DNA from: Candidatus Saccharimonadota bacterium
GTDB taxonomy: Bacteria > Patescibacteriota > Saccharimonadia > Saccharimonadales > Saccharimonadaceae
DNA: 64,000 bases
Direction of reading: 5' to 3'
NCBI GenBank assembly: GCA_017540545.1
Contig: JAFYAV010000001.1
Span: 1-64,000, forward strand
Part shown: piece by piece, positions 27,642 to 54,453 of the stretch
How positions within the stretch are numbered: position 1 is the first letter of the stretch
How the letters are laid out: each line of letters begins with the position of its first letter
Made by a program: the position numbers and the translations under genes
The notes under the pieces: generated by a model
The model's input: the letters and a program-made list of their open reading frames with translations, nothing else
Database searches by the model: none
What the model was told of the DNA's origin: nothing

Positions 27642-27718
27642 GGGTCGCTAGCTCAGTTGGCTAGAGCGCCTCGTTTACACCGAGGAGGTCGGGGGTTCGA
27701 GCCCCTCGCGACCCACCA
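27642..27718 (+). tRNA. tRNA-Val (TAC)
   Basis: Complete cloverleaf with acceptor GGGTCGC/GCGACCC, anticodon loop TTTACAC (anticodon TAC), T-loop TTCGAGC and an encoded CCA. It is the first tRNA followed by the 3'-end repeat element. Confidence 0.96.
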
Positions 27719-27905
27719 AACCAAGAAAAATGCCCAGAGGGTATTTTTTGTTGGTTTGCTTAGTTTCAGAGCGTGGGGCGAGAACCCGCAGGGTTCGTGC
27801 GAACAAGGAGCCGAGGCAAGCAAAAAATGCTTGCATTTTTATTTGCGAGGCGACGCAGTGAATCAAGGCTCCATCAGGAGCCGCTGCCCCTCGCGACCCA
27901 CCAAA
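27701..27905 (+). mobile_element. tRNA 3'-end repeat element, copy A (tRNA-Val)
   Basis: After tRNA-Val comes a terminator-like hairpin (TGCCC/GGGTA + T run), then hairpin 1 GAACCC-gca-GGGTTC, the conserved block AGGAGCCGAG, hairpin 2 (GC-rich ends enclosing A- and T-rich arms), CGAGGCGACGC, hairpin 3 GGCTCC/GGAGCC and finally a direct repeat of the tRNA 3' end (27701-27720 repeated at 27886-27905; period 185 bp). A second terminator (CACTCAA/TTGAGTG) follows the copy, as expected if it is the original tRNA flank pushed away by an insertion. No ORF inside. Confidence 0.75.
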
Positions 27906-28027
27906 GAAAGCACTCAATCGAAAGGTTGAGTGTTTTCTATGCTCAATGGTAAAAAGTAGAAGCCAACAGGATTTGGACACCCAGAACTCCGTTTTAAACA
28001 TTTTTTAACTTGTAGTACAATCAAAGC

Positions 28028-28250: not shown

Positions 28251-28326
28251 GGGGTGTTAGCTCAGTTGGTAGAGCGATTGGTTCGCAATCAATAGGTCAG
28301 GAGTTCGAATCTCCTACACTCCACCA
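28251..28326 (+). tRNA. tRNA-Ala (CGC)
   Basis: Cloverleaf with acceptor GGGGTGT/ACACTCC including the G3-U70 pair that identifies alanine tRNAs, anticodon loop TTCGCAA (CGC), encoded CCA, and TATAAT upstream (28231-28236). It is the second tRNA followed by the repeat element. Confidence 0.95.
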
Positions 28327-28573
28327 AAAAACGAAAAGATGGCCGTCAGGTCATATTTTTGTTTTTTAATGCAGGAGATGAGAACTCGCAGAGTTCGGTA
28401 GCAAAAGGAGCCGAGCGAAGCAAAAAAGCTTGCTTTTTTATTTCCGAGGCGACGCCTTGCTATGTCTCGAGCTTAGCGAGAGATATATCTCCTACACTCC
28501 ACCAAAAAACGAAAAGATGGCCGTCAGGTCATATTTTTGTTTTTATATCCAGGAGATGAGAACTCGCAGAGTT
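28309..28573 (+). mobile_element. tRNA 3'-end repeat element, copy B plus truncated second copy (tRNA-Ala)
   Basis: Same order as copy A: terminator hairpin, hairpin 1 GAACTC-gca-GAGTTC, AGGAGCCGAG, hairpin 2 (AAAAAAGC/GCTTTTTT), CGAGGCGACGCC, hairpin 3 TCTCG/CGAGA, then the tRNA-Ala 3' end again (28309 repeated at 28487; period 178 bp). Here the repeat continues through the terminator for 58 nt and, after a short variable gap, through hairpin 1 (28373-28395 = 28551-28573), where it stops. So a second, truncated element stands in tandem. Confidence 0.75.
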
Positions 28574-45489: not shown

Positions 45490-45564
45490 GCGGGTGTCGT
45501 ATAACGGCTATTATGTATCCTTCCCAAGGATAAGACGAGAGTTCGACTCTCTCCACCCGCACCA
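45490..45564 (+). tRNA. tRNA-Gly (CCC)
   Basis: Cloverleaf with acceptor GCGGGTG/CACCCGC, anticodon loop TTCCCAA (CCC), T-stem GAGAG/CTCTC and encoded CCA. It is the third tRNA followed by the 3'-end repeat element. Confidence 0.95.
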
Positions 45565-45749
45565 GCAAAACAAAGACAACCCCAAAGGGGTTATTTTTGT
45601 TTTGTCCCATGCTGAAGCGAAGAGAGGCGAACGTAGTTCGTCCGAAGTAGGAGCCGAGCGAAAACTAGGAACGTAGTTCGTCGTTTTCCGAGGCGACGCC
45701 CTGAGGTATAGCCTTGCGCCAGCAAGGCGCTCTCTCTCCACCCGCACCA
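45547..45749 (+). mobile_element. tRNA 3'-end repeat element, copy C (tRNA-Gly)
   Basis: After tRNA-Gly: terminator ACCCC-AAA-GGGGT with a T run, hairpin 1 CGAAC-gta-GTTCG, AGGAGCCGAGCGA, hairpin 2 GAAAAC...GTTTTC with an inner GAAC-gta-GTTC, CGAGGCGACGCC, hairpin 3 GCCTTGC/GCAAGGC, then the last 18 nt of tRNA-Gly again (45547-45564 = 45732-45749; period 185 bp), and another terminator (ATAACC/GGTTAT). Sequence in the hairpin arms differs from copies A and B, but pairing is kept. Confidence 0.75.
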
Positions 45750-53517: not shown

Positions 53518-54453
53518 CTATTCTACTTCACTATGAAACTTTTCGTGTACTTCTCGCAAATGTGGGTCAGTCACATGCGTATATATCTGCGTCGTCGAGA
53601 TATTTGAATGTCCTAGCAAAGATTGCACTGAGCGCAAGTCTGCCCCATTCATTAATAAATCCGTCGCAAATGAATGCCTTAGCGTATGTGGTGTTACGTG
53701 TTTCGTGATGCCCGCCGCTCGCACATATTTATTAATAATTCTCTCAATGCTCCGCGGCGATAGTCTTCGGTAGTCTCCCGAAGTCCCCGCCGCTGGCTGA
53801 TTACGCGAATTATTCAAAAACAAAGCCGGTAAAGAATCTTTACGTTCATCTAAATAATCTTTTACCGCATCCGCCGCCGATTGTGATACGAAAACTGGAC
53901 GATCTTTTTGCCCCTTTCCGCGCACCATAAATTCCCGTCGCGCCAAGTTTACGTGATCACGATTCAAGTTTGTCAATTCCGACACGCGCAAGCCCGTCGA
54001 AAACAGCAACTCGAAAATCGCTTTATCCCTCAAACCATCTTCGGTATCCAACGGAATCTCCGCCAATATTCTATCAATTTCATCTACATGTAAGAATGTT
54101 ACTTGTGCCCGATGTGTTCGCGGCAGCTCAACCAACACGGGATCAAGTGACTTAATTCCCCGTTTCGCTAAATATTTCAGAAACCCCCTCATCGCCACCA
54201 AATGATAATTTTGCGTCATCACTGATAGCCCCTTCCCCTTCTCGGTCACATAACGATTTAGCCAAAGTCGATACTTCCTCAGCCACTCAGGTGTCAAATC
54301 CGCCGGTCTTAAATCATTCTCCGGATTTGACTCCTGACTAAATTCGATTATCCTCGATAAATACAGCTCATAGTTACGTGTTGTATATCTGCTTCTGCCA
54401 TTCTCTACCTCTAGTGACTCGAGAAACTCGTTGATTAAATCTGCGACGTACAT
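53518..54453 (-). CDS. xerD: Tyrosine recombinase XerC/XerD
   Basis: A 311-residue integrase with the SAM-like N-domain and the catalytic set: Arg in STGLRVSELTNL, His-x-x-Arg in TPHTLRHSFATDLL, His in LLGHSNISTTQIYTHV and the nucleophile Tyr in the same segment. Xer recombinases resolve chromosome dimers at dif. Length and sequence fit the single-Xer type. It starts within the pilD stop (TAATG), an unusual partner. It could also act on the tRNA-end elements, which is speculation. Confidence 0.9.
   Translation of the reverse strand: MYVADLINEFLESLEVENGRSRYTTRNYELYLSRIIEFSQESNPENDLRPADLTPEWLRKYRLWLNRYVTEKGKGLSVMTQNYHLVAMRGFLKYLAKRGIKSLDPVLVELPRTHRAQVTFLHVDEIDRILAEIPLDTEDGLRDKAIFELLFSTGLRVSELTNLNRDHVNLARREFMVRGKGQKDRPVFVSQSAADAVKDYLDERKDSLPALFLNNSRNQPAAGTSGDYRRLSPRSIERIINKYVRAAGITKHVTPHTLRHSFATDLLMNGADLRSVQSLLGHSNISTTQIYTHVTDPHLREVHEKFHSEVE

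Follow-up and report, generated by a model that had tools for sequence, protein, structure and literature searches.

The tRNA-Ala(CGC) gene of the window, the whole 64,000-nt stretch of DNA that was analyzed, is followed by a tRNA-linked repeat (TLR) and a broken-off second unit, here called copy B (Table 1). The window belongs to a Saccharibacteria genome of 795 kb in two contigs (G000). Positions 28309-28395 and 28487-28573 match over 87 nt with 97% identity at a spacing of 178 nt; no other direct repeat in the window reaches 40 nt. The match consists of 58 identical nucleotides, 6 variable nucleotides containing three mismatches, and 23 identical nucleotides, and it stops at 28573; the original prediction of a tandem with a partial second element at 28309-28573 was exact to the base. 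The repeat opens with 18 nt that are the 3' end of tRNA-Ala(CGC), and a terminator hairpin was scored in both copies (28339-28354 and 28517-28532). The full unit measures 178 nt, and the partial second unit ends 11 nt short of the position of the P3 core. The window contains two further units, one behind tRNA-Val(TAC) (copy A) and one behind tRNA-Gly(CCC) (copy C). The second tRNA 3' end of copy A (27887-27903) is followed by a different terminator at about 27904-27939, and that of copy C lies at 45732-45749; all three window units carry the closing repeat of 17 or 18 nt.

Table 1. Features of the tRNA-linked units in the window
Feature	Position	Strand	Evidence
tRNA-Ala(CGC), anchor gene; last 18 nt (28309-28326) are the first repeat copy	28251..28326	+	ARAGORN, Rfam RF00005
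Terminator 1 of copy B unit	28327..28366	+	hairpin and T run; fold z -5.9
Inverted tRNA T-stem/acceptor end (P1 5' strand; AGGAGAT 28373-28379) and hairpin P2 (GAACTC-GCA-GAGTTC)	28371..28396	+	sequence; P1 pairs in fold
P3 arm core, GGAGCCGAG ... CGAGGCGACG, two tandem G-A motifs around 3 bp, hairpin cap	28407..28454	+	pattern, covariation, covariance model
Hairpin P4 of copy B	28464..28484	+	sequence; genus-wide P4 follows tRNA type
Second tRNA-Ala 3' end, 18/18; closes P1 of unit 1 and opens partial unit 2	28487..28504	+	sequence, repeat search
Partial unit 2: terminator 28505-28544, 6-nt variable gap 28545-28550, inverted tRNA end and P2 28551-28573	28505..28573	+	sequence, repeat search, terminator scoring
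Copy A, unit behind tRNA-Val(TAC) 27642-27718	27719..27903	+	covariance model, 97.7 bits
Copy C, unit behind tRNA-Gly(CCC) 45490-45564	45565..45749	+	covariance model, 103.5 bits

Each unit consists of a terminator, an inverted tRNA 3' end, the hairpins P2, P3, and P4, and a closing 18-nt repeat of the tRNA 3' end in direct orientation, after which the next terminator begins. The direct copy is predicted to pair with the inverted copy, forming P1. P2 has the pattern GAAC..GTTC, and at the foot of P3 the sequence GGA-NNN-GAG stands opposite CGA-NNN-GAC, giving two tandem G-A motifs that flank three base pairs. The invariance of GGAGCCGAG and CGAGGCGACG in the alignment used (A1) is partly due to selection since its 49 sequences were picked by exact pattern. 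The proposed pairs covary, with 220 cells changed on both sides when 75 were expected (none of 500 shuffles was as high), and the signal was lost when the pairing partners were slid. In a second genus the three base pairs between the G-A motifs change in step; GAC/GTC, GTC/GAC, and GGT/ACC occur there in relatives. The covariance model matches copy B at 28371-28503 with 104.9 bits. The fold z-scores of the window units are -4.6 for A, -3.6 for B, and -1.9 for C, and the minimum-energy fold of copy B contains the P1 pairs while pairing P2 differently from the model. P1 to P4 never appeared all together in single-sequence folds of A and B, so the fold model rests on sequence comparison. The tRNA-sense strand gave the better fold in 61 of 80 elements, compared with 26 of 82 control flanks.

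The inverted copy scored a mean of 8.7 against its own tRNA and 5.8 against shuffled tRNAs (80 elements; 0/2000 as high), and the own tRNA was strictly the best match in 45 of the 80, isoacceptors often being tied. The closing repeat is identical to the tRNA end at 18/18 positions in 49 of 81 elements and at 15/18 or more in 64. Control scans at +400 nt found no tRNA 3' end match better than 11/18 (n = 77), which excludes chance as the source of the repeat. Elsewhere in G000, a 67-bp unit is repeated 2.4 times at 100% identity behind tRNA-Lys(TTT) (L017 1566-1729, on contig G000:C2); it consists of a tRNA 3' end, a short terminator, and an inverted tRNA end without the P3 core and is thus a minimal version of the same design. 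Degenerate or core-altered elements lie behind tRNA-Lys(CTT), tRNA-Arg(TCG), and tRNA-Val(CAC) of the same genome (L015, L022, and L023), and one of these consists of a terminator, an inverted end, and P2 only.

The covariance model (R1) was run on 45 genomes of this Saccharibacteria genus and gave 110 matches in 36 of them. Thirteen weak matches (24 to 36 bits) were left out of further counts, leaving 97 strong ones. The position that defines a TLR, behind a tRNA or rRNA gene on the same strand, is occupied by 81 of these 97, which lie 24 to 91 nt behind a tRNA in 31 genomes and with 15 anticodons, and also by 5 that are second units; of the 11 others, 8 are no more than 112 nt from a contig end. 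Across the order, 392 genomes in 156 genera were covered, and a match at E <= 1e-4 was found in 110 of the genomes and 19 of the genera, mostly in another genus of this family that shares the architecture. The exact pattern occurred in 26 of 61 genomes, all from this genus, and a reversed-pattern control gave no match. A scan of genome contigs with a short pattern returned, among the matches listed, mostly GC-rich sequences of other phyla and at least six Saccharibacteria loci. In a plasmid search with the unit, the matches span only the tRNA part of the query in the 20 of 89 records listed.

Not all cores lie near tRNA genes. In two genomes from sheep it was found at a CIRCE palindrome before dnaK and in coding genes, within palindromic inserts, as well as directly behind CCA. 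One sheep Saccharibacterium carries a palindromic insert, resembling the palindromic elements of Rickettsia, in frame in both trmD and obgE (L075 4800-5200 and 6500-7000); in trmD the insert has itself received the TLR core, and the obgE copy is empty. At another locus the core separates the two arms of a CIRCE-like palindrome that precedes dnaK, beside an intact CIRCE (L080 4375-4491). Where the core directly follows a tRNA (L407, G416:C9:3864-3998; L400, G417:C29:51001-51140), the P3 stem uses the tRNA's own CCA. A purely tRNA-processing role does not explain the cores at CIRCE and in coding genes.

TLRs were described in 1978. We know of no agreed function or origin for them. The closest known kind of unit to those of Saccharibacteria is the E. 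coli TLR (RtT RNA, RF00391). Stenum and coworkers (2021, PMC8144298) count 22 TLRs at ten E. coli loci, one to five at each, with a last 18 to 19 bp that match the 3' end of the tRNA or rRNA gene ahead of them; no known function is given except for the TLRs of the rrn operons. The two groups share a location behind tRNA genes, the same strand, and a closing 3' end repeat of 18 to 19 nt, and tandem arrangement as well, with one to five units in E. coli (PMC8144298) and single, two-unit, and partial second copies in Saccharibacteria. What sets the Saccharibacteria units apart from those of E. coli is the pair of tandem G-A motifs in P3, the terminator carried by every unit, the range of 15 anticodons, a presence that varies between close relatives, and cores that also occur outside tRNAs. 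Among the matches listed in the open-access literature, bacterial TLRs were reported for E. coli only.

Behind E. coli tyrV, repeats of the tRNA 3' end lie at +178, +356, and +534, and the order of an inverted tRNA end, GAGAA, and the 3' end repeat is that of the Saccharibacteria units, with GAGAA in the same place. The inverted end scored 11, a value reached by 0 and 2 of 500 shuffles in two scans. Among 11 E. coli RNA genes scanned, only tyrV showed both an exact repeat and a clear inverted copy; the exact repeat behind leuP is the next tRNA gene, and behind rrfB a repeat of 13/18 was present and an inverted copy was not found. The RF00391 model detected its E. coli control, scoring the four tyrT/V units at 133 to 138 bits, and reached its gathering score of 45 bits in none of the 45 genus genomes (best, 34.0 bits). 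At E <= 1 it matched 16 places in the genus, 13 of which are these elements, ranked first genome-wide with a best E of 3.4e-5; copy B is among them (E 0.2). The best RF00391 matches are raised by tRNA-Tyr, which is common to RF00391 and these elements. In the opposite direction, the model built here ranked the four tyrT/V units first within 7.7 kb, as weak matches. No Rfam family was assigned to the element at the gathering score, nor to the first five loci when the limit was relaxed to E 5. This resemblance to E. coli TLRs and the RF00391 matches below the cutoff are the reason for the name TLR-type elements, which marks a relation in design and does not imply common descent.

Several other known systems resemble the units in part. 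The small RNAs rrA, rrB, and rrF, encoded in the rRNA operons of E. coli, are likewise units between two terminators with a 3' end that repeats the upstream RNA gene and expression by read-through (PMC8144298); binding to Hfq and CsrA has been reported for them. They differ in lying behind 5S rRNA, and no inverted copy was found behind rrfB. REP/BIME palindromes and Rickettsia-type palindromic elements are also short gene-less hairpin units (partly after PMC3733652), and the core in coding sequence and inside palindromes of other Saccharibacteria is a similar trait, as is the GTAG that precedes the core in many copies. The Saccharibacteria elements differ from REP/BIME in being anchored to tRNAs, and no RAYT-type transposase was found in 41 of the 45 genomes (PF01797 is present in 4, not including G000). 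Elements that use a tyrosine integrase insert at tRNA 3' ends, leave a direct repeat on both sides and the tRNA intact, and can stack at the recreated site. The TLR units share the direct tRNA 3' end repeats, the intact tRNA, and the stacking but are unlike these elements in being only about 180 bp, in containing neither gene nor integrase, and in carrying an inverted tRNA end inside. A search with PF00589 found no recombinase gene in the units and one Xer-like gene in most genomes; in G000 the only tyrosine recombinase found is an Xer-like protein of about 316 amino acids (window 53566-54096). Searches of the 45 genomes with PF00589 and PF01797 found no recombinase dedicated to the units.

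The tRNA-Ala(CGC) locus was read in 33 cases, of which 24 are empty, 8 are filled, and 1 holds a remnant, an outcome that speaks against the old fixed duplication that a comparison of relatives might have revealed; the empty sites rule out a simple old duplication. The filled state does not cluster on a tree of 38 ThrS proteins and needs at least eight changes for its eight rows, and the filled locus of G034 has near-identical empty relatives in G011 and G035. P4 and the terminator follow tRNA type and not genome (0/300 permutations), so jumps between tRNA types are rare. The proposal that the cores follow the genome rather than the tRNA held for the P3 hairpin only, which follows both. One tRNA-Glu(CTC)-type element lies behind tRNA-Lys(CTT) in G026 (C3:55790-55925, L066) and is likely a secondary-site or recombined copy. 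Element identity tracks ThrS identity for Ser (r 0.92) and Leu (r 0.59), weakly for Tyr, and hardly at all for Gly(TCC), Ala, and Val.

Among units with a clear right repeat, 16 of 66 have a second copy that extends past the terminator; 14 of 80 units were dropped from this count for a right repeat below 14/18 or for a contig end. The second copies tend to stop at the same place. Fourteen of the 16 tails end between -26 and +6 nt of the P3 core, a span of 32 nt that includes the tail of copy B at -11; this clustering had been noticed before it was counted, and three of the 14 (the Tyr tails of G036, G026, and G031) represent one shared event. Of the other two tails, one reaches the end of P3; the second is a full copy, matching at 182/182 positions in G020, where it lies at a contig end. 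In the Tyr element of G000, a second copy of 90 nt is 100% identical; the P3 hairpin is then missing and the sequence resumes on the 3' side of P3, as though the hairpin had been jumped over. The original prediction supposed a deletion after the second insertion; deletion at random positions is unlikely because so many second copies end near the P3 core. The break point at the foot of P3 belongs to the mechanism.

Three of the eight filled Ala(CGC) loci carry truncated tails (G000, G003, and G015), and each fits its own first unit best, clearly in G000 (81 versus 39 to 46) and G015 (65 versus 43.5 to 44) and slightly in G003 (44.5 versus 38.5 to 41). The tail of copy B is absent from the relatives read and is therefore recent. 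The original prediction of a second insertion at the recreated site therefore holds as to recency, but its two units are of one lineage (97% identity), which tandem duplication explains as well as re-insertion does. That a copied tRNA end can serve as a new target finds its support elsewhere. Behind tRNA-Gly(TCC), the order of two element lineages is reversed between the sister genomes G024 and G015, a finding in favor of re-use of the copied end. Identity is 83% between the first unit of G024 and the second of G015 (at most 75% and 68% in the other comparisons) and 80% in the reverse pair (at most 80% and 79% in the others); the former pairing is decisive and the latter is not.

On balance, the TLR is probably an insertion in a tRNA gene whose number changes at the 18-nt repeats, and any RNA made from it would come from read-through. 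At the DNA level, the unit would sit in the tRNA gene bounded by the direct repeats, recombination between the repeats would remove or duplicate it, and the repeated tRNA end would accept further units. The second unit of copy B may have arisen as a recent tandem duplication or as a re-insertion of the same element and would then have lost all sequence beyond the base of the P3 arm, which we propose occurs because replication skips a strong hairpin (P3, P4). The clustered tail ends could instead mark the end of an insertion product. RNA of the unit would be made only when terminator 1 is read through and would fold into P1 to P4, with its 3' end produced by tRNA-trimming enzymes, by analogy with what has been proposed for the rrn TLRs of E. 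coli. The placement of a terminator ahead of the unit argues for a low predicted level of this RNA. The presence of the inverted-copy design at E. coli tyrV and not behind rrfB counts against this explanation as a whole.

A possible but doubtful alternative sees each unit as a non-autonomous mobile cassette that recombines at tRNA 3' ends in the form of a single-stranded or circular copy. P1 would fold the single strand into a double-stranded copy of the target, so that units insert, stack, and are lost, with a resident Xer or a visiting integrase helping in trans; the units would behave like integron cassettes for which the tRNA gene is the fixed site, and the second unit of copy B would be a second insertion with a product ending at the P3 hairpin. 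Empty and filled sites among close relatives, units bounded by 18-nt repeats, the Glu-type element behind a tRNA-Lys, the opposite order of the two Gly(TCC) lineages, and the preferred end of the partial copies are all consistent with this. Element identity that hardly follows thrS within Gly, Ala, and Val points the same way, but Ser and Leu elements do follow thrS, P4 and the terminator keep to their tRNA type, and most genomes have one conserved Xer and no further integrase, PF01797 being limited to 4 of 45.

It is unlikely that the unit is an old, vertically inherited regulatory RNA, kept by selection and often lost, whose tandem and partial copies are meaningless slippage. Such an RNA would account for the covarying structure on the sense strand, for the P4 specific to tRNA type, and for Ser and Leu elements that follow the species. 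However, the unit is missing from most Ala(CGC) sites without clustering on the tree, the end points of second copies are nonrandom, and cores occur in unrelated places. An artefact of assembling a metagenome-derived genome is very improbable, for although repeats are hard to assemble and the identical G020 pair lies at a contig end, the window copies differ at three positions and independent second copies with their own differences occur in many genomes and behind many tRNAs.

The Saccharibacteria genomes contain, in another phylum, a large and isoacceptor-diverse set of TLRs that is still changing and that ranges from empty sites through single and partial units to stacks. In general terms, TLRs might conceivably form a single class of mobile cassettes without genes, with tRNA 3' ends serving as their attachment sites and the P3-P4 core as a module able to settle in other palindromes too, though this is a tentative suggestion. 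The P1 to P4 design provides a structural signature for searches elsewhere, and the Saccharibacteria set allows the question of whether TLRs are RNAs, mobile cassettes, or both to be tested.
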